Positions 3 to 14,559 of a stretch of DNA of 15,411 bases are shown piece by piece. A model generated the notes under the pieces. The model did not search any database. It was not told the origin of the DNA and was given only the letters and a program-made list of their open reading frames with translations. Numbering within the stretch: the first letter of the stretch is position 1; each line of letters starts with the position of its first letter. The DNA comes from Caldilineaceae bacterium (GTDB lineage: Bacteria > Chloroflexota > Anaerolineae > Caldilineales > Caldilineaceae): contig JAAUPU010000006.1 of assembly GCA_012032975.1 (NCBI GenBank), positions 1-15,411 on the forward strand, in the 5' to 3' direction. Both the position numbers and the translations under genes were made by a program.

Positions 3-192
3 GGCGGCTTCACGGCCTTCATCTGCTGGACGTTTCAGCCGGAGAATACGGACATGGCGGACATCCCGGCGGCGGGGTCGTTCGAGTATCTGCGGACGCA
101 GGCGATTGCCCGGCTCTATCTGGATAACATCCCCAACATTCAGTCGTCGTGGGTGACGCAGGGGCTGAAGGTGGGGCAACTGGCTCTGCGCC
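3..192 (+). pseudogene. mqnC: MqnC (cyclic dehypoxanthinyl futalosine synthase) C-terminal fragment
   Basis: The frame starting at base 3 encodes about 63 residues that I recognise as the C-terminal part of MqnC, the radical SAM enzyme that cyclises dehypoxanthine futalosine in the futalosine route to menaquinone. Diagnostic pieces are [36 protein letters not shown] and [17 protein letters not shown]. The family normally continues with a glycine-rich FGANDxGSTMIEENVVSAAG-like stretch. Here the frame instead turns into arginine/proline-rich sequence that is the antisense of the neighbouring sulfatase, and it stays open only to a stop at 368. The 5' part lies outside the window. The gene therefore lacks roughly its last 70-90 residues, including conserved ones, and is probably not functional unless the join is an assembly artefact. 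Identification rests on recalled family sequence. Confidence 0.75.
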
Positions 193-1215
193 CGCGAGAT
201 CGACCACCGTCGCGACCAGATCCACCAGTGACACAACCTGGGACACTCGCCGACCAGAGGGCCAACCGGCCTGCCACGAGATCACCATCGGGATGCGCGC
301 CGACTCTTCGTAGAAGTTGGATTTGCGCCACATGCCGTGCTCGCCTGCCATCTCTCCGTGGTCGCTGATGTAGATGATCACCTGTGTTTCAAGTTGACCC
401 GTCTCGCTCAGCGCTGCAACCAGTCGTCCGATCTTGTCGTCGAGATAGGTGATCAGCCCGTAATAGCCGACCCGCGCCCGGCGCAGCGCGGCTTCTGGAT
501 ACTCGACCAGGCCGAACATGCTGCGCATGCGCTGATAGACTGGGTGCTGGTTCTCCAGATGACCTGCGGGAATCTGCGGCAGATCGACCTCGTCCGGCGG
601 ATACAAATCCCAGTATGGCTGGGGCACGACCAGCGGGAAGTGGGGCGCAATGAACGAGACGTTGATCGCCCACGGCTGATCCCGCCGCGCCGGGTCGCGT
701 AGATAGGCCAATGCCCTGGCCTCCGCCTCATCATCGACTTCGATCTCCAGCGTCGTGCCCGGACCGGCCTGGTCGACGCCCATCCACGGCGTCTCTGCCT
801 CGACAATGCCGTCGGCCCAAGGATGGATGGCGTGGTTCGTTTCGCTGTGGGGATCGCGGCCTAGTTGGGCGCGGAAGCCATGCAGCTTGTCCGGCCCGAT
901 GAAGTGCTGCTTGCCGGAGAGCACCACGTCGTAGCCCACCGCACGCAGCAGATGCGCCCAGGTCACCGCATCCGAGGCGAGCGGCGATGTGTTGTCCCAA
1001 GCGCCAATGTGGTGGATGTAGCGCCCCGTCATAAACGACATGCGCGAGGGGACGCAGAGCGGCGAATTGCAATAGGCGTTCTCGAACAACACGCCAGCCT
1101 CTGCCAGCCGATCCAGGTGGGGCGTCTGCACGAGCGGGTGTCCATACGCACCGCTGAACATGGGTGCGTGTTCGTCCGACATGATGACAAGGAAGTTGGG
1201 GCGTTGGGTGGTCAT
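178..1215 (-). pseudogene. Sulfatase (CxPSR type, choline-/arylsulfatase-like), C-terminally truncated
   Basis: This encodes a formylglycine-dependent sulfatase that hydrolyses a sulfate ester; the substrate cannot be told from sequence. The N-terminus RPNFLVIMSDEHAPMFSGAY carries the first metal-ligand region. NSPLCVPSRMSFMTGR is the C-x-P-S-R signature whose Cys becomes formylglycine. Further on, [20 protein letters not shown] is the second metal/substrate region. I chose the ATG at 1213-1215 (MTTQRPN) because AGGAG lies 11 nt upstream and the family starts just before the RPN; an in-frame ATG at 1248 adds an unconserved leader. Homology stops at about [11 protein letters not shown]. The open frame then runs antisense through the mqnC fragment to base 19 with low-complexity sequence. 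About 80-100 C-terminal residues of a usual ~480-residue sulfatase are missing. Confidence 0.8.
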
Positions 1216-1242
1216 AGGTGACCTGGCTCCTGTCTTGATGTG

Positions 1243-1263
1243 ATCCACGGATTTCGCAGATTG
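1243..1263. repeat. Possible dispersed repeat (ATCCACGGATTTCGCAGATT)
   Basis: The gap upstream of the sulfatase start contains ATCCACGGATTTCGCAGATT. It resembles a short, often tandem ATCCACAGATTTCACAGATT-type repeat that I recall as dispersed in many environmental bacterial genomes. Only one unit is present. The resemblance is from memory and its role is unknown. The rest of 1216-1330 shows no convincing gene on either strand. Confidence 0.3.
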
Positions 1264-5605: not shown

Positions 5606-8464
5606 ATGAGTATACGTCTCGCAGATGCTGCATCATCGCCAGCAGCAGTAGCCGCACCCCAACTCCTGTTACAAACGAAGCTTTATCACCCCCCGCCTGC
5701 GGATAATCTCATCGTCCGCCCTCAGTTGCTCGATTATCTCAGTCAGCCTTTACCACGCAAATTGACCTTAATCACTGCTTCAGCTGGCTATGGGAAAACA
5801 ACCATCGCTACCCAGTGGCTCGACCAATTGATCAAGACGCGCCAAGAAGGCGCCATCTCTATTGCCTGGCTCTCGCTGGATGAACATGATGATGAACTGC
5901 TGCTCTTCCTACGCTATCTGGTGGCGGCAATCCAGAAAGCCTGCCCTGGTTTTGGGAGGAATATTCTACATGCGCTGCATGGGGCCCAGTCGCCGACCTG
6001 GCAGCAGATCGCGGATAGTTTGGTCAATGACTTGGCGCACATAGCACAGCCGCTCTGCTTGACACTGGATGATTATCACGTCATTACGGCGGACGCGATC
6101 CATCAGGTGCTCAACCGGCTGCTGGAGCACCTGCCACCGATAGTGCATCTGATCTTGCTCAGCCGTACGGAGCCGCCTTTGGCCCTTGGCCGTTTGCGCG
6201 TTCGGCGTCAGATGCAGGAGTTACGCGCGGCCGACCTCACCTTTTCGCTACAAGATACGGCGCACTTTATGAGCCGGATGCTGGGGCGAGAGCTGCGGCC
6301 AGAGACGCTCCAAACGCTGTATGCCGGCAGTGAAGGCTGGATTGCCGGGTTGCAACTCACGGCGCTATCGCTCCCTCGTGCGACAGATGAAGGGCAACTG
6401 GTTGATGACACAGCCCTCCTCCGCCACTTCCGTGGCAACAATGCGTACCATATGGACTATTTATTTGAAGAGATCTTGGTGCTTCAACCACCGGCGATCC
6501 AGGCGTTCTTACTACAGACTGCCATTTTTGAACGGTTCTGCGCTCCCTTATGTCAAGCCGTCTTGGATTCAGTATGGTTTGCGCAAATCGAGGAGGAGGC
6601 GCAAGGGCTGACGCCCATTGCGGCGAGTCCGGCCCCGATTCAGGCGGTTTTCAGTTGGTTGCGGCGCGCGAATCTGTTTCTCATTCCACTCGATGGCGAA
6701 GGAGTCTGGTATCGCTATCACCACCTCTTTCAGCAGATGCTGGAACAAACCCTACGCGCGCGGCTGAGCGCGGCGCAGATCGCCATGCTCCACCGGCGCG
6801 CCAGTGCGTGGTTGGCTGCGGAAGGGGTGACGGAGAGCGCCATCCGCCATGCACTGGCTGCGGGAGACGCACTTCTGGCTGCGCAGCTGATCGAACAACA
6901 GCGCTACCATCTCTTAAGCCAGCATGATTTTCCCACCTTAGACCGTTGGTTGTCGTGGTTACCAAGCGAAGTGATCGTCCAACGGCCTGCCCTGTTGGTG
7001 GCACAAGGTTGGCGTCATTACTTCTTTTACCGCGCCAGGGAAACCTTTTTCCGCTTCGCAACGCAGGCGGAGGCGCAGTTGGCATCATCCGACTTGGGGA
7101 TGGATGCGGCGTCAAAGCAGATTTTGGCCGGTGAGATCCATGCGCTGAAGGCATTTAGCTTGCCCTGGCACAGTCATGCTGATGAGATCTGGCGCCACAT
7201 TGAATTGGCCTTTGCCCAAACTCCCGAAGGAACTGTCTTTCTCTATCCCTATTTGGTCTTGATGAAAGCCTACGCCCTCAATACACAAGGCAACGTCACA
7301 GAAGCGCACGCCTTTTTGGAAACCGCACAGCGCACGATACAACGGACCTCAAGTGCAGCCGGTATGGTCGCCGGTTTTGCCCAACTCATCAATTTTGTGA
7401 ACGGTAAGCTCTCCCAATGCGCCTCAGTCTATGAACAGTTGTGGAAAATGGAGTCGAATCATCAGAGCAACCATGGCCCATTTTTATCAAGCGTTCTGCA
7501 TGCATACCTGGGGTCCATCTACTATGAATGGAATCAACTGGACAAAGCTGCCGTACATCTAACGGCTGTGCTCGATATCACGCATGGTTACAGCCTAGGT
7601 GCATTCAAACGGGGCGGCCTGATATTGGCTGCGCTCTATCAAGCACAGGGCAGATTTGTCGAAGCTGTGCAGGTGCTTGAGCGACTTTACCAATTGGATG
7701 TAGCCAAAGAGAGTGACTACTTCCGCCATGAGGTGCAATCCTTTCATGCCAATTTGCTCCTCAGAGAGGGTGCAATGGCAGAGGCGCTGCAACAGTTTCA
7801 TCTGGTGAAGCCAGAACCGCTCTATTTGATTGACGCGGCCACCGAGTTCTCTATGCTAACACAAGCCCAACTATTGATTGTTCAAGGGGGCGAGCAAAAT
7901 CTTGCCCAGGCCGCTGAGATTTTGCAGACTCAAAAAGCAACGACTGGCCCCCTCCACCATCGGGGCAGACGGATTCATGTGCTGGCGCTCGAAGCGTTAC
8001 TCCAACGAGCAGCAGGCCGACAGAAAGAAGCATTAACCGCCCTAGAAGAGGCGATTATTCTGGCCAAGCCGGATCACTTCATCCGCACCTTTGTCGACCT
8101 CGGTCCCGACCTGGTGCAGCTACTGGAACAACTGCGGCGACAGCAAATTGAACCCGATTACATCGGGCAAATCCTCATGGCGTACCCCTTGGCAACACAA
8201 GCACCGCAGACCATGCGGCCAAGCCAGCCTGCTCAACCACAGCCGCTCCCACCCGCAACGAAACTGGTTGAACCGCTAACGGAGCGTGAACGCGAAATCC
8301 TCGTCTTGTTAGCCGAACGCCTCTCGAACAAAGAGATTGCCCATCTCCTGGCTGTCTCGCCCTTTACGGTCAAAAACCACCTCAGCACCATCTATCAGAA
8401 GCTTGGCGTCAGCGGCCGTCGACAGGCTGTGAATCACGCCGGGCGCGCTGGACTCCTGCATTAG
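5606..8464 (+). CDS. Large ATP-binding LuxR-family transcriptional regulator (MalT/LAL type)
   Basis: This 952-residue protein has the three-part build of MalT-like regulators. The N-terminal STAND ATPase carries Walker A ASAGYGKT at residues 58-65 and a Walker B-like LCLTLDD near 150-156. It also has LLSRTEPPL and GSEGWIAGLQL, both typical of the family. A TPR-like helical middle spans about 400-860. The C-terminal LuxR helix-turn-helix covers about 891-952, starting LTEREREIL, with NKEIAHLLAVSPFTVKNHL as the core. In characterised members, ATP and an inducer drive oligomerisation and activation of transcription; the inducer here is unknown. The ATG at 5606 has no strong Shine-Dalgarno, but the product then begins at the family's usual distance before LLQTKLYHPP. 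The gene is intact. Immediately downstream lie repeated TAGTCC motifs before the GTPase gene, which makes that gene a candidate target. Confidence 0.93.
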   Translation: MSIRLADAASSPAAVAAPQLLLQTKLYHPPPADNLIVRPQLLDYLSQPLPRKLTLITASAGYGKTTIATQWLDQLIKTRQEGAISIAWLSLDEHDDELLLFLRYLVAAIQKACPGFGRNILHALHGAQSPTWQQIADSLVNDLAHIAQPLCLTLDDYHVITADAIHQVLNRLLEHLPPIVHLILLSRTEPPLALGRLRVRRQMQELRAADLTFSLQDTAHFMSRMLGRELRPETLQTLYAGSEGWIAGLQLTALSLPRATDEGQLVDDTALLRHFRGNNAYHMDYLFEEILVLQPPAIQAFLLQTAIFERFCAPLCQAVLDSVWFAQIEEEAQGLTPIAASPAPIQAVFSWLRRANLFLIPLDGEGVWYRYHHLFQQMLEQTLRARLSAAQIAMLHRRASAWLAAEGVTESAIRHALAAGDALLAAQLIEQQRYHLLSQHDFPTLDRWLSWLPSEVIVQRPALLVAQGWRHYFFYRARETFFRFATQAEAQLASSDLGMDAASKQILAGEIHALKAFSLPWHSHADEIWRHIELAFAQTPEGTVFLYPYLVLMKAYALNTQGNVTEAHAFLETAQRTIQRTSSAAGMVAGFAQLINFVNGKLSQCASVYEQLWKMESNHQSNHGPFLSSVLHAYLGSIYYEWNQLDKAAVHLTAVLDITHGYSLGAFKRGGLILAALYQAQGRFVEAVQVLERLYQLDVAKESDYFRHEVQSFHANLLLREGAMAEALQQFHLVKPEPLYLIDAATEFSMLTQAQLLIVQGGEQNLAQAAEILQTQKATTGPLHHRGRRIHVLALEALLQRAAGRQKEALTALEEAIILAKPDHFIRTFVDLGPDLVQLLEQLRRQQIEPDYIGQILMAYPLATQAPQTMRPSQPAQPQPLPPATKLVEPLTEREREILVLLAERLSNKEIAHLLAVSPFTVKNHLSTIYQKLGVSGRRQAVNHAGRAGLLH

Positions 8465-8554: not shown

Positions 8555-8667
8555 TGATGGCTCATGCAATGCGGCGCTGCACCCGCTATCATTGAGCTAT
8601 CAACGGGCAGTACGGTGACATGCCTAAAATTGCTCGACACATTCGAATTCAACGGAGGAAAACAATC

Positions 8668-10002
8668 ATGGATTTAACTAGAGAAACTTTGACGGTTGCA
8701 TTCTGTGGCCCAGTCGGTTCCGGCAAGTCGACGCTCCTTGGTAACTTTCGCTTCCTCACCGGAGGTTTTGACCAGCGTAGCCTTGATCGAAAATTTGGTG
8801 GGGGGGAAGTCAATTATGCCTGGGTGATGGACAATACGGCTGAAGAGGAAGCGGCTGGAAGGACGCTACGATGGTCTTCGTGTTTTGTTGAGACCGAAAA
8901 ATACCTCCTCAATTGCGTCCAAGTTCCCGAGTCCGTCGATCTGCTTCGCGAGACGATCTCCGGACTGTCCCAGGCGGACGTGGCGTGCTTGGTGGTGGAT
9001 CCGCACCCAGACCGTTTCGAGGCGGCCATCGCACCAGGCGGCGAGATCATGCGCACGAGCATCATCCTGGCGACGCTTGGAATCAACCAACTGATTGTCG
9101 CCGTGAACAAAATGGACACCGTCAGCTATTCCGAGACGCGCTTCAATGACGTGGTCGCCCAACTGAAACCCGTTCTCCAAGAGTGTGGACATAATCTCAA
9201 CTTGGTGCGCTTTTTTCCCACTGTCGCGACGAAAGGTGAAAACGTTATCGGTTCGAGCACCAACATGCCGTGGTGCAAGGGGACCTTGGCGTGGACCTTG
9301 TTGAGTGCCATCGACACCATCGACAGCGCCCAACTGCCGGTGAAGAATGCCAGCGCGCCTTTTAGGGGCTTGGTCGTCCGAGAGGACAATCAGTACGCGG
9401 ATGGGACCGATTGGCTCGTCGTGCATGTCGAGGCGGGGGTCCTCAGACGGGATCAAGAAGTCGTTTTTTATCCCACGCACACTGTCGCTAACCCCTGCGC
9501 AGCGAAAATCCGCCAGATTGATTTTCGCCATGAAGCCGTTAGCGATGCCGGGCCAGGGGCAACCGTGGTCCTCGAGCACTCGGGCCTGTCCAAAACGCAC
9601 TGGCCTCGACGTGGCGATGTAATGGTGATCAAAGGTGACACATCTCTCGGTCCGGTCACTCGATTCACTGCCAGGATCTCGGTCGTGTATCAAGATGGGC
9701 CGCTCGCGGTGGGCGCTGTGACCACCCTTTATCTCAACAGCGCGCAAGTCCAAGTCCGGATCGCAAAAATCGAGCGCGAATTCAACAGGAAGACCGGGGC
9801 GACCATTGCGGAGAATCCAGCCTCGATTGGCCAAGCAACAGGTGCGGTTGTGGTCTTTGAGCCCCTCGAACCGCTGACTTTGGCGGTGTTTCAGAAGACT
9901 TGCCAGGGGCTTGGCCGGCTGGTTCTCACCGACAGCAAGCTGAGCGCCGCTGGGGTCATGAACCTGAGCATCGGCGCGGTCAGCAACGTCGTCTACGGTT
10001 AA
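8668..10002 (+). CDS. EF-1alpha/CysN-like translational-type GTPase paralogue with degenerate G3 motif
   Basis: This 444-residue protein aligns by eye with the whole length of archaeal/eukaryotic EF-1alpha. Landmarks are G1 GPVGSGKS at 14-21, then GGFDQRSL, NYAWVMD, SGLSQAD, and TLGINQLIVAVNKMD with G4 NKMD at 147-150. After these come STNMPWCKG at 197-205 and beta-barrel domains with REDNQYADGTDWL, HEAVSDAGPGATV and FNRKTGATI. The switch II/G3 element (DAPGH in EF-1alpha) is replaced by QVPES at 85-89, so the Asp, the Gly and the catalytic His are all lost. Switch I (RGIT) is altered to AAGRTL. It probably binds nucleotide without normal GTP hydrolysis or elongation activity. The ATG at 8668 has GGAGG 9 nt upstream; an earlier ATG at 8620 lacks a Shine-Dalgarno site. 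No CysD or other translation gene is nearby. Its role is unknown. Confidence 0.8.
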   Translation: MDLTRETLTVAFCGPVGSGKSTLLGNFRFLTGGFDQRSLDRKFGGGEVNYAWVMDNTAEEEAAGRTLRWSSCFVETEKYLLNCVQVPESVDLLRETISGLSQADVACLVVDPHPDRFEAAIAPGGEIMRTSIILATLGINQLIVAVNKMDTVSYSETRFNDVVAQLKPVLQECGHNLNLVRFFPTVATKGENVIGSSTNMPWCKGTLAWTLLSAIDTIDSAQLPVKNASAPFRGLVVREDNQYADGTDWLVVHVEAGVLRRDQEVVFYPTHTVANPCAAKIRQIDFRHEAVSDAGPGATVVLEHSGLSKTHWPRRGDVMVIKGDTSLGPVTRFTARISVVYQDGPLAVGAVTTLYLNSAQVQVRIAKIEREFNRKTGATIAENPASIGQATGAVVVFEPLEPLTLAVFQKTCQGLGRLVLTDSKLSAAGVMNLSIGAVSNVVYG

Positions 10003-10351
10003 CGGCGGTTAGCGGTTATAACCATTGCTGCAGCAGGTCCTCAGGCACAACAAGCCGTTGAGCATTTAGTTGCATTTGTTGCGCAACTGCAGTAGTTGAT
10101 ATCTATCCTTCGCTCTGTTTGAAAACCGGAGTCGCCTGAAGGAGTAAACTTCTTCGCAAAGTCCGGTTTTCAAAACAACCGCCGTATAGCATCAAAGCAA
10201 GGCAAACTGCCTTTGTTTGCCTGTGGTCATCATGGTTGGTCAGGCTCGAGCAAACTCGGCTTGGTTGTGGGTCAGGTTTGCCGGGTTGGTTCTACAATCA
10301 AATATCATGGTACGAGTCGCTAACAAATCATTGCAAAGGAGACTAAATCAG
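10003..10351. other. 349-nt intergenic region with several small palindromes and a long hairpin
   Basis: I see no gene here; an open frame upstream of 10352 lacks a ribosome-binding site. The region holds the perfect palindrome GGTTATAACC (10014-10023), GTTGCGCAAC (10078-10087) and the long hairpin listed separately. TACAAT (10293-10298) and TATCAT (10303-10308) are possible -10 elements for the downstream gene, but neither has a good -35 partner. Confidence 0.4.
10118..10174. repeat. Long inverted repeat/hairpin, 13-bp perfect arms
   Basis: TTTGAAAACCGGA (10118-10130) and TCCGGTTTTCAAA (10162-10174) are perfectly complementary across a 31-nt loop. The loop itself can form a small GAAG/CTTC stem. 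The hairpin lies 115 nt after the GTPase stop and 177 nt before the secreted-protein start. It may be a bidirectional terminator, a small dispersed repeat element or an mRNA stability element. No long U-tract directly follows. Confidence 0.6.
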
Positions 10352-11060: not shown

Positions 11061-11442
11061 TTACCGCATCCACAGCCGTAGCATGCGAAACGCCCGTTCT
11101 GGCATCTCGGCCAGCACCTCAGCCAGCGGTAGACAGAACGGTTGGACGGAAGGCGCTTTGAACGTATGATGGGTCTAGCTCAGCCTGCACCGCTGCGACG
11201 ATACCCCATAATTCGCCTGCTTGTCCGCGCACCAGCGCCGCCTGCACCTGCTCCAGGGACAAGACCGTCTGTAATTCAGTTTCCAGGCCGGCCAAGCGAT
11301 CTTTGCTTTCCTGGTAGCTGCTAGGATGGTGCTGGATCAGCCCAATCAGCGTCAACGCCTCTTCCGGTTGACCCGCCTGTTGCTGCAAGTGGGCAAAGCA
11401 GGCCAGCGCTTCGAGCGCCTGGGGCGCGGTTTCCAGTTGCAT
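11061..11442 (-). pseudogene. Second TPR regulator tail remnant (paralogue of the 1469-2353 remnant)
   Basis: From about 11442 the minus strand encodes QLETAPQALEALACFAHLQQ, then GLIQHHPSSYQESKDRL and LVRGQAGELWGIVAAV, and stops at 11119. About 55 of 83 residues are identical, by eye, to the tail inside 1469-1784. The corresponding 161-nt stretches (1624-1784 and 11280-11440) align without gaps. Only the last ~85 residues of a regulator remain; upstream the sequence joins the 3' end of a VWA gene. After the stop, a neighbouring frame continues LPLAEVLAEMPERAFRMLRL to a TAA at 11061, which may be a further remnant tail reached by a frameshift. It is non-functional as it stands. Confidence 0.6.
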
Positions 11443-11482
11443 GATTCCACATTCTGGAACGCGTCCAACGCTTTTAGCAGCT

Positions 11483-12564
11483 TTACACCAACGGGTTCCA
11501 CATCTGCGCCAGTGCCAGGGCCAGAAGGGCCAGGATCGCCCCGACGCCAGCGAACGCAACCGACACCTCGCGCGCCTCTTCGGTGGTGATGAAATACTTG
11601 GGCAAGTTGGCAAAGACCTGGTGCAGCGCGTCTGCGCTCTCCGCAAGATAGTACTCGCCGTCCGTCATCTCCGCGATTTGGGTGAGCGTCTCCTCGTCCA
11701 AAGCGCGGCGTCCTCCGCCAAATCCACCTCCCACCCCACCGCCGCCAAAGTTGTTCGGGTCTATCTCGAAGAGTCCTGCGCTGCCCAAACTGCTCTGGCG
11801 TACAGCGTCTCGGCGTGTTCTCGTGCTCTGTCCCAAAACCGATGGTATAGACGCGTATCCCGCGCTCTGCGGCGAGTTGGGCTGCGTCCAACGGCAGCGC
11901 GCCCTGGTTGCTGGATCCGTCGGTCAGCAAGACGATGATATCCGGCTGGTAAGAGCCAGCGGGAATGGGCGTCGGTGCGATCTCGCCAACACCGCGCCCC
12001 ATGTTGACCGGCGCCACGTTGGCGTTCACCTCGGCAATTGCGTCGATGGACCGAAGAATGGCGCTGCCGACCGCGGTGCGCCGTGCGCGCGTCAGACCGT
12101 CGATTGCCTGGATCAGTGCGTCCTGGTCGCGGGTCGGCGGCATCACCAACTCGGCAAAACCGGCGAAAGCCACGACCCCTACCTGCGTACCAGCCTCCTG
12201 GTTGAGCACGAACGCCTTGGCCGCTTCTTGCGCGGCGGAAAAACGATTGGGTGAAATGTCCGTGGCGCACATGCTGCCTGAAACGTCCAGCGCGAGGATA
12301 ATGGTGGCGCGGCTGTAGGAGATGGCCATGACCGCGGTCGGTCGAGCCAGGGCGAATACGAGCGCAGCAATTGCCAAGAGAAAGAGCGCCGCCGGCAGAT
12401 GCCGTCGCCAGCGAGAACGTTTCGGTATTGGCTGCGCGCACAAGTTGCAGGCTGGAGAAGCGGATGGTAAATCGGCGACGTCGTCGCAGAGACCAGATGT
12501 AGACTACGAGGATCAGCGGGACCAGAAGAAGCAAAGCCAGAAACCACGGCCACAAGAAGTTCAT
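11483..12564 (-). pseudogene. BatB-like VWA-domain membrane protein, two single-base frameshifts
   Basis: This is an aerotolerance-type (Bat) von Willebrand factor A membrane protein of about 360 residues. The N-terminal membrane helix is FLWPWFLALLLLVPLILVVY. A second helix follows at HLPAALFLLAIAALVFALARP. The VWA domain has the MIDAS motif DVSGS and the downstream LLTDGSSN. A glycine-rich loop and LDEETLTQIAEMTDGEYY come next, then the C-terminal helix VAFAGVGAILALLALALA. Three frames carry the product. Removing one T at 12428-12429 restores LVRAAIPKRSRWRRH, and removing one C at 11785-11787 restores PEQFGSAGLFEIDP. GGAGG lies 6 nt before the ATG at 12562-12564. It follows a similar gene by 53 nt, as in bat operons, but no MoxR ATPase or DUF58 gene is present. 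Either the errors are in the sequence or the gene has decayed. Confidence 0.75.
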
Positions 12565-12617: not shown

Positions 12618-13626
12618 TCACGGGAAGCGGCCAAACCAGAAGAGCGACAGCACCGATGCCGCAAGCAGGATGACCATCCCAACGCCCGCCAAGAGCGCAG
12701 TGACTTCCGTCTCCTCTGGCTGCACTGTCAACGCGCGGGCAACGCCGTCATAGATGTCCGCCATTTCTTCCTCGCTCTCAACGTTGAAATAGACGCCATT
12801 GGTGATCTCTGCGACCCTGCGCAGAAGCTCCTCGTTGAGCCGGGTGACGACCGTAAAGCCATCGATCTCGAGGTGGTCCCCGCAGCACTGCCCATCCCTA
12901 CCGTATGCACGCGCACGCCATAGTCCGCTGCTCGCTCCGCGGCCTCCAGCGGATCCGAATCGGCCATGTCCTCTCCGTCGGTGATCAACACGATCACCGC
13001 GTCGTCGAACGAACCCGAAGGCAACGGGGTAGGGATGGGCGTGCGTGGCGTTTCGACGCCGTCCTCCTCAGATTCTGCCTGTGGCGCGACGCCGGTCAGG
13101 ATCAAGGCCAATGCAGCGAGGATACCTTCTCCTAACGATGTGCCACTTTGCGGCGCCAGCCGGTTGATGGCGTCGAGGAGTTCGATCTGCTCGAAAGTGG
13201 GTTGTTGCACGACCATCCCACCTTCGCTGAATGCGACCAGGCCGACCCGGATGGTGTCGGGCTTCTGCTGCACAAAGGCCAGAGAGGAGCTTTTGGCCGC
13301 CTCCATTCTGCTTGGTTCAATATCGCCTGCAGCCATGCTGGCAGAGACGTCAAAGGTCAGGATGACTGTTCCTTCGTACAGGGGCACGTTCAACGGCATG
13401 TGAGGGCGGGACAATGCAATGAGCAACAACGCGATACCCAGCAGGGAGATGCCTGCCGGCAGTGCCGCCGCCAGCCAACCCGCCGGCTGCTGCCGCTCTG
13501 TGTCAGATCCAAGCTGCCCCACCGCGCGATCAGATCACGGCGGCGTCTGTGGGCCTGAGCGTAGAGCAAGACGCAGACTGGCAACAGCAGGAGCGATACG
13601 AGCATCCACGGCCAGATGAACGTCAT
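12618..13626 (-). pseudogene. BatA-like VWA-domain membrane protein, two single-base frameshifts
   Basis: This upstream partner of the VWA gene at 11483-12564 has about 336 residues once repaired. It starts MTFIWPWMLVSLLLLPVCVL (first helix) at the ATG 13624-13626. The second helix is WLAAALPAGISLLGIALLLI. The VWA MIDAS is DVSAS, with ITDGEDM further on and a proline-rich insert TPRTPIPTPLPSGSFDD before it. The C-terminal helix is ALLAGVGMVILLAASVLS, ending WFGRFP-stop at 12618. Adding one base in the C-run 13517-13520 restores IARWGQLGSD. Adding one in the C-run 12878-12881 restores GSAAGDHLEIDGF and RLNEELLRRVAEITNG. The family is tied to periplasmic stress or MoxR-linked metallochaperone systems; the exact role here is unknown. 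Its 5' neighbour is an unrelated hydrolase remnant. Confidence 0.75.
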
Positions 13627-13690
13627 GGATCGCAATCATCCTGGGAAAGACTGTCCACCGCACACCGCCGAAGCAGGCTGCGGAGCAACA

Positions 13691-13923: not shown

Positions 13924-14327
13924 TCAGCCGTCCAACGTCTCACGAGATTCGCGTGGGGACTTCACGGCGAATGAATATCCTGAAGAGATGCCTCTGAGAA
14001 AGTCACGATTGTAGGAGACCATCACATCAATATGACGCCACTCACAGAACGCTCCAATTTCCGCGTCGCCCTTTCTTAACCCCATTTTCTCAAAGACTGC
14101 AATGAGGTGCAGTGGAACTTTGTCGAAGTCGACAGTTGCTCTTGAACGCAACAGGAGCCGGTAGAACTGTCTCATGTCATCGCCAGAGAGATTGCGCTCC
14201 AATTCGGCCCGAACTTGGTCTGGAATGATCACATCAAGCTTGTCCAAGTTGAGCAAAATATACTCACAGGAATCATCGATGCCGGAATGCCAAAAATTCA
14301 GACGTTGGTGTCCAGACTAACTTTCAT
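13924..14327 (-). pseudogene. PIN-domain toxin (VapC-like), broken by a stop and a frameshift
   Basis: This is the toxin half of a type II toxin-antitoxin pair; PIN proteins are Mg-dependent ribonucleases. It starts at the ATG 14325-14327 with MKVSLDTNV, where the Asp is the first acidic active-site residue. It then meets an in-frame TGA at 14298-14300. The next residues, IFGIP, lead to a frameshift at the GG of 14284-14285. Restoring one base gives GIDDSCEYILLNLDKLDVII and then RAELERN, KGDAEIGAFCEWRHIDVMV and SYNRDFLRG, which hold the remaining acidic residues. The stop at 13924 follows SRETLDG. Its start overlaps the antitoxin stop by 11 nt, typical of a translationally coupled pair. Without the two lesions all four acidic residues would be present, so the breakage looks recent or is a sequencing error. 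Confidence 0.7.
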
Positions 14328-14559
14328 GCCGTTCAGCCCAAACAGACTCGCGCGTATCACGAAGAAGATTCAGGATTTCATCCTTGTCCATTGCGGCAAG
14401 TGGGTGACGGCCACGAATGTCAGCCAGCCAATTCTTCATCTCTTCAATATCGTCTGACCGATCGAGGATCACGATCTCGATTTCTTTTTCCGGTGGCAAG
14501 CCTGACAGGTGAACTGAGCCATCTTTTTCTACGACTGTATTGTATCGATAAGTAGCCAT
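14317..14559 (-). CDS. Antitoxin-like small protein paired with PIN toxin
   Basis: This intact 80-residue protein starts MATYRYNTVVEKDGSVHLSG and contains EIEIVILDRSDDIEEM and an acidic C-terminal half. The start ATG (14557-14559) has AGGAGG at 14564-14570, about 5 nt away, one of the best ribosome-binding sites in the window. Its TAG overlaps the start of the PIN gene by 11 nt. Size, order and overlap are those of a type II antitoxin. The fold looks like a short beta-strand dimeriser (SpoVT/AbrB-like or a related DUF) followed by a toxin-binding tail, but I could not name the antitoxin family. Such antitoxins usually repress their own promoter; three phased CACGAAG repeats lie 53-79 nt upstream. 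Confidence 0.65.
   Translation of the reverse strand: MATYRYNTVVEKDGSVHLSGLPPEKEIEIVILDRSDDIEEMKNWLADIRGRHPLAAMDKDEILNLLRDTRESVWAERHES

Follow-up and report, generated by a model that had tools for sequence, protein, structure and literature searches.

The 15,411-nt contig JAAUPU010000006.1 of a Caldilineaceae bacterium (hereafter the window) carries at 8668–10002 of its forward strand a gene for a 444-residue protein of the EF1A/EFL type, in which the G3 motif of the GTPase centre is destroyed. We propose that this window protein is a bacterial pseudo-elongation factor with three domains, the second and third of which come from EFL, a branch of the eukaryotic EF1A family, and that it binds GTP without hydrolysing it, serving as a binding platform (probability roughly 0.58). 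The gene assignment draws on profile matches and predicted fold, and the features on which the argument turns are as follows.

8668–10002, forward strand: gene for the EF1A/EFL-type three-domain protein with destroyed G3, 444 residues
8654–8658, forward strand: GGAGG, Shine-Dalgarno-like, 9 nt upstream of the ATG at 8668
8707–8730, forward strand: G1/Walker A, GPVGSGKS, residues 14–21, with the Asp of GHVDxGKS changed to Gly
8863–8865, forward strand: G2/switch I Thr66, retained
8920–8934, forward strand: G3/switch II, QVPES in place of the EF1A/EFL DxPGH, residues 85–89
9106–9117, forward strand: G4, NKMD, retained, residues 147–150
9340–9651, forward strand: domain 2, residues 225–328, boundaries approximate
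9472–9498, forward strand: EFL-type domain-2 signature PTHTVANPC, residues 269–277
9652–9999, forward strand: domain 3, residues 329–444, boundary approximate

A three-domain protein with a dismantled GTPase centre

The frame at 8668–10002 is uninterrupted across its 444 codons. The longest open reading frame (ORF) opens at an alternative ATG at 8620; because GGAGG stands 9 nt before it, the ATG at 8668 is the better start. All three EF1A domains are preserved in the predicted fold of the protein; a structure predicted without an alignment was poor (predicted local distance difference test score 35.9) and was set aside.

An earlier, sequence-only reading had claimed an EF-1alpha backbone, and its motifs are each found residue by residue: GPVGSGKS at 14–21, YAWVMD at 50–55, NKMD at 147–150 and STNMPWCKG at 197–205. 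It had also read QVPES at the site of DxPGH, which is exactly what the codons CAA GTT CCC GAG TCC encode. PGH is encoded in neither alternative frame at this site, and DAPGH occupies the position in the five PDB EF1A chains aligned. The G3 change thus bears out the proposed loss of GTP-hydrolysing residues. The claim of an intact G1 stands only in part: GxxxxGKS is kept, but the Asp of GHVDxGKS has become Gly and the His has become Pro. The protein therefore lacks both DxPGH and the P-loop Asp by which an elongation factor is recognised, and its G5 Ser is replaced by Val; Gly14, Gly19, Lys20, Ser21, Thr66, Asn147, Lys148 and Asp150 are retained. Since the Walker A Lys and Ser, the switch-I Thr and NKMD are all in place, guanine-nucleotide binding is plausible. 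Given the losses of the P-loop Asp, of switch II and of conserved domain-2 positions described below, the protein is expected neither to work as a GTPase nor to carry tRNA.

A sequencing or assembly error, or an isolated mutation, at G3 was considered and rejected. Other genes in the window do look frame-broken, which would favour an error; however, three codons are changed in an unshifted frame and the Okeania protein introduced next is likewise missing PGH, so that the chance of an error is practically nil.

One close relative in Okeania shares the losses

A search of 5.8 billion proteins brought up one clearly closest match, P0002 from Okeania, with 40% identity over 92%; the subsequent matches, among those listed, are eukaryotic or archaeal EF1A-family proteins at 28–35% identity. 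Two protein searches returned 744 and 827 matches at E 1e-10, and the top 120 from each entered the analysis, while a third returned nine at E 1e-8; their overlapping union gives a set of 180 proteins. DxPGH is present in 178 of the 180, the two exceptions being the window protein and P0002, whose G3 reads DVPHA, so that Gly and His are gone there too. The survey of homologues proposed beforehand, which would have undercut the reading had all of them shown DxPGH, hence found the only close homologue without it.

The Okeania gene lies on a 53.5-kb contig amid cyanobacterial-looking genes, and eukaryotic contamination is therefore an unlikely source.

The losses of the two proteins (hereafter the pair) coincide. 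At 90 columns conserved to at least 95% across 179 references, the window protein departs at 41 and the Okeania protein at 32 (including one stop and three gaps); 28 of these departures are common, against about 15 by chance (hypergeometric 1.6e-9, in a test that treats alignment columns as exchangeable). The common losses include Asp17 of the P-loop, which is Gly in both, and switch II at 88–90, 92 and 94–96, together with domain-2 positions 236, 245, 247, 249, 253, 287, 298, 299 and 301. Seven of these conserved domain-2 positions, altered in both members (245, 247, 253, 287, 298, 299 and 301), probably line the aminoacyl-tRNA pocket. Domain 3 is the region of highest identity within the pair, at 46%, versus at most 39% for either member to any reference.

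Profile matches point to EF-1alpha, not CysN

Pfam recognises GTP_EFTU (3.5e-26) and GTP-eEF1A_C (1.3e-12) in the window protein. The NCBIfam EF-1alpha models PRK12317 and TIGR00483 score 242 and 231.3 bits, short of their curated cut-offs; that of TIGR00483, 540.1 bits, is also missed by the EFL yardstick P0015 (414.1). These scores support the suggested descent from an elongation factor. The reading had further placed the protein nearer to EF-1alpha than to CysN, in agreement with the profile search (242 versus 112 bits), and had seen no CysD or translation gene nearby, in agreement with the Pfam scan of ten neighbours, which contains none. That it might instead be a CysN-like sulfate-activation GTPase, an assignment that would have told against the reading, has some appeal, as CysN models do match (4e-32 to 6e-28) and a passage of PMC4342817 describes CysN as an ancient archaeal EF1A transfer into bacteria. 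However, the EF-1alpha models match much more strongly (8e-72), the CysN profile scores 111.9 bits where its cut-off is 336.1, CysD is absent among the ten neighbours scanned, and DxPGH is intact, by motif, in the Salmonella CysN yardstick and in three weak CysN-like cyanobacterial matches. We accordingly rejected a CysN identity, which is highly improbable.

Domains 2 and 3 favour a place for the pair beside EFL

Trees were built from 38 to 42 rows, selected out of 184 (below 72% identity to rows already kept, at least 400 residues) and joined by named rows. Three extra rows were added for the 41-row tree with Hbs1 and eRF3, CysN and EF-Tu rows entered one tree only, with P0088 dropped afterwards, and P0001 and P0052 were both dropped when the Okeania protein was analysed alone. 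EFL and eEF1A labels follow identity thresholds and motifs and were compared by eye with the consensus patches of PMC3938643; several rows received the archaeal label only once the tree with CysN and EF-Tu had been seen. Groups for the approximately unbiased (AU) tests were likewise named after the trees were seen, and the p values carry no multiple-test correction.

In the 41-row tree, the window and Okeania proteins form one clade (100/99) that is sister to EFL (100/99), and the Okeania protein alone takes the same place beside EFL. A tree of domains 2 and 3 again sets the pair beside EFL, and AU tests on these domains disfavour joining the pair to eEF1A (p = 0.021) and, narrowly, to archaea (0.043) or joining EFL to eEF1A (0.0495). 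Consistent with this placement, both proteins have the PTHTxx[NT]PC region of domain 2 and its Cys column. Cys277 is found in 81 of 82 EFL rows, whereas every one of the 53 eEF1A rows has a gap in this column, as do 43 of the 44 remaining, mostly archaeal, rows. The signature occurs in 34 of the 178 other proteins and in none of the 92 carrying a YAW/FAW motif, whereas the pair has both motifs. Among the rows examined, the signature in domains 2 and 3 is otherwise confined to EFL, while the G domain of the window protein stays EF1A-like. In the Okeania protein, mean identity to EFL versus the remaining rows is 39% versus 28% in domain 2, and 44% versus 49% in domain 1.

Several results weigh against an EFL origin. 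In the tree of domains 2 and 3, EFL itself is supported at just 94/95; the G domain alone leaves the pair without a resolved place; and with CysN and EF-Tu added, the pair, CysN and EFL form a single unresolved fork. Full-length AU tests reject neither the pair with eEF1A (p = 0.118) nor the pair with Hbs1/eRF3 (0.224), nor the pair with archaea (0.074), nor EFL with eEF1A and the pair outside (0.112); for the Okeania protein alone, the values are 0.106 for eEF1A, 0.257 for Hbs1/eRF3 and 0.066 for archaea. Even on domains 2 and 3, the pair with Hbs1/eRF3 is kept (0.123). The window branch is very long, at 1.8–2.0 changes per site, and in domain 2 the Okeania protein is no closer to the window protein (41%) than the best EFL match is (43%). 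The EFL G-domain insertions are missing, the columns that would hold them after residues 124 and 178 being gapped, and the CTTK patch is absent, columns 69–73 reading W S S C F in the window protein and V N Y W R in the Okeania protein; both are described as marks of EFL in PMC3938643. Two sequences and long branches thus limit the certainty.

The pair might accordingly derive from archaeal EF1A, eEF1A or Hbs1/eRF3, its likeness to EFL in domain 2 being convergent or produced by long-branch attraction. The placements left by the full-length AU tests, Hbs1/eRF3 on domains 2 and 3 as well, and the greater nearness of the Okeania G domain to non-EFL rows speak for such an origin; we consider it somewhat unlikely in view of the domain-2 insertion column with its PTHTxxNPC signature and of the AU results on domains 2 and 3 against eEF1A and, narrowly, archaea. 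Domains 1 and 2 favour different groups, as would also be expected of a mosaic in which an EF1A-type G domain was recombined onto EFL-type domains 2 and 3. Domain 1, however, has no supported grouping with eEF1A, and the same pattern would arise had the pair branched from the EFL stem ahead of the remodelling of the EFL G domain. We consider a mosaic quite improbable. We offer an early departure from the EFL stem in a fuller form only tentatively: bacteria may keep a side branch that split from the EFL stem before living EFLs radiated, so that the EFL-type domain 2 would predate the remodelling of the EFL G domain, and the pair would serve to root EFL as its outgroup and would represent a pseudo-elongation factor that has taken up a new bacterial role.

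The family is rare among the genomes searched

A genome-contig search for close relatives returned none for P0001 and one locus for P0002, and viral contigs queried with A1 and P0002 yielded no member. In plasmids, tblastn matched 364 records, all below 60% identity; among the 20 listed, the annotated ones are EF-1alpha (tuf) or cysC. The phage collection gave three records whose annotation is cysN or EF-Tu-like, the EF-Tu-like one falling within a cysDNC operon. Cyanobacteria were searched with A1 in three overlapping sets that all include the Okeania genome, with no genome contributing more than four scored candidates in the rows shown for the phylum and order; matches came from 3 of 386 genomes of the phylum and 2 of 388 of the order (E 1e-20), and from 31 of 39 relatives (E 1e-10). 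Across these 386, 388 and 39 genomes, the Okeania genome (G001) alone has a member: the three remaining phylum and order matches are CysN-like by motif with DxPGH intact, and the weak matches among the relatives (41–52 bits) are presumed to be EF-Tu.

The window frame has been maintained

When neutral point mutation was simulated, stop-free copies numbered 6 of 300 at 0.1 substitutions per site and 1 of 300 at 0.2, and none of 300 at either 0.5 or 1.0. Because such frames break so readily and the protein branch spans 1.8–2.0 changes per site, the window frame has been maintained; the simulation gives no hint of its purpose.

It could nevertheless be that both genes are decaying relics of a transferred elongation-factor gene, functionless in their hosts. 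The Okeania hirsuta frame has one in-frame TGA directly after Walker A (L001 9995–9997), downstream of which the public protein begins, and its G4 reads NQMD, with Gln at position 148; the Okeania copy may be truncated, read through or dead, and part of the family may therefore be decaying. The great length of the window protein's branch and the broken-looking genes around it point the same way. Against a relic stand the intact window frame with its ribosome-binding site, the simulated breakage, the common losses focused on active sites, the persistence of the predicted fold, and a codon-position GC that resembles that of neighbouring genes. We judge a relic unlikely overall; its odds overlap with those of the alternatives above, ancestry and function being separate questions.

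Gene neighbourhoods

Ten gene-like ORFs of the window were scanned with Pfam, of which seven matched. No shared features were noticed between the window and Okeania gene neighbourhoods, a point against the proposed reading. Promoter and terminator scans gave no excess over shuffles; an inverted repeat at 10103–10189, about 100 nt past the stop codon, has 28-nt arms that are 75% complementary and 31 nt apart. An intact LuxR/MalT-type gene occupies 5606–8464, and the short ORFs 1469–2047 and 11119–11646 (both reverse strand) have HHPSSYQESKDRL in common and may be what is left of LuxR/MalT-type regulators flanking the intact one. Two VWA-domain genes at 11352–12564 and 12728–13635 (both reverse strand) each span overlapping frames, a pattern that a frame-shifting error or decay could have left; VWA and LuxR/MalT-type genes would be in keeping with a Chloroflexota host. 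The Pfam match of a sulfatase at 19–1248 (reverse strand) stops at residue 354 of 409, the remainder resembling a frame shift. At 13924–14559 (reverse strand), two small adjoining ORFs have the appearance of an antitoxin and a PIN-like toxin, without a Pfam match. In Okeania, L001 3016–5790 holds a chlorophyll-binding-like ORF of 924 residues with a long internal repeat, either genuine or an assembly artefact.

A proposed mechanism and its significance

In the mechanism we propose, an elongation factor of the EFL lineage would have been transferred into bacteria and then turned into a pseudo-GTPase; it seems an old borrowed gene put to new use. The protein would hold GTP or GDP through its retained Walker A, switch-I Thr and NKMD residues, would leave GTP unhydrolysed when on the ribosome and would be unable to carry aminoacyl-tRNA. 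Held in a single conformation without hydrolysis-driven switching, it could act as a binding platform, as proposed for Ski7. The decoy, regulator or sensor suggested by the earlier reading would be a conjecture, so that this reading is borne out in part. Since domain 3 is the part most alike within the pair, the partner surface would most likely lie on domains 2 and 3.

Passages of PMC1891102 describe EFL as restricted to eukaryotes, and part of PMC3938643 describes its tree as not reliably rootable because of long-branch attraction. Among the titles and abstract openings listed for EFL or bacterial EF1A-like proteins, none reports a bacterial EFL relative. If our reading is true, a bacterial relative with EFL-type domains would bear on the origin of EFL, though a branch of such length would by itself be a poor root; it would also be a non-eukaryotic case of an elongation factor that has given up hydrolysis and tRNA carriage with its fold retained.

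Comparison with known systems

With EFL, the pair has in common the domain-2 PTHTxxNPC region and the Cys277 column, and is its sister in the best trees; it differs in lacking the DxPGH that the examined EFL rows retain, as well as the G-domain insertions and CTTK patch, and in having bacterial hosts. What sets it apart from eEF1A and archaeal EF1A is the loss of G3, of the P-loop Asp and of conserved positions in domain 2, besides the EFL type of that domain. CysN, like the window protein, is a bacterial offshoot of the EF1A family, yet its profile match to the window protein is much weaker than that of EF1A and it retains DxPGH in the rows checked; cysD adjoins it in two annotated loci, and three short cyanobacterial loci show no CysD-type motif. 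Certain eukaryotes in which EFL co-occurs with a divergent EF-1alpha provide an analogy: in PMC3699394, the divergent copies are proposed to have left protein synthesis while keeping a subset of functions, but they are eukaryotic and none is named in our trees. Ski7, a yeast Hbs1 paralogue, is described in part of PMC4509514 as having Ser in place of the active-site His and is thought there to bind GTP without hydrolysing it, a monovalent cation being held between its Asn277 and a switch-I carbonyl. The window protein likewise belongs to the EF1A family and has Ser at the catalytic His position, but it carries Gly where the Asn277 of Ski7 helps to hold the cation; Ski7, moreover, is eukaryotic and on the Hbs1 side, whereas the window protein is without an added N-terminal region.
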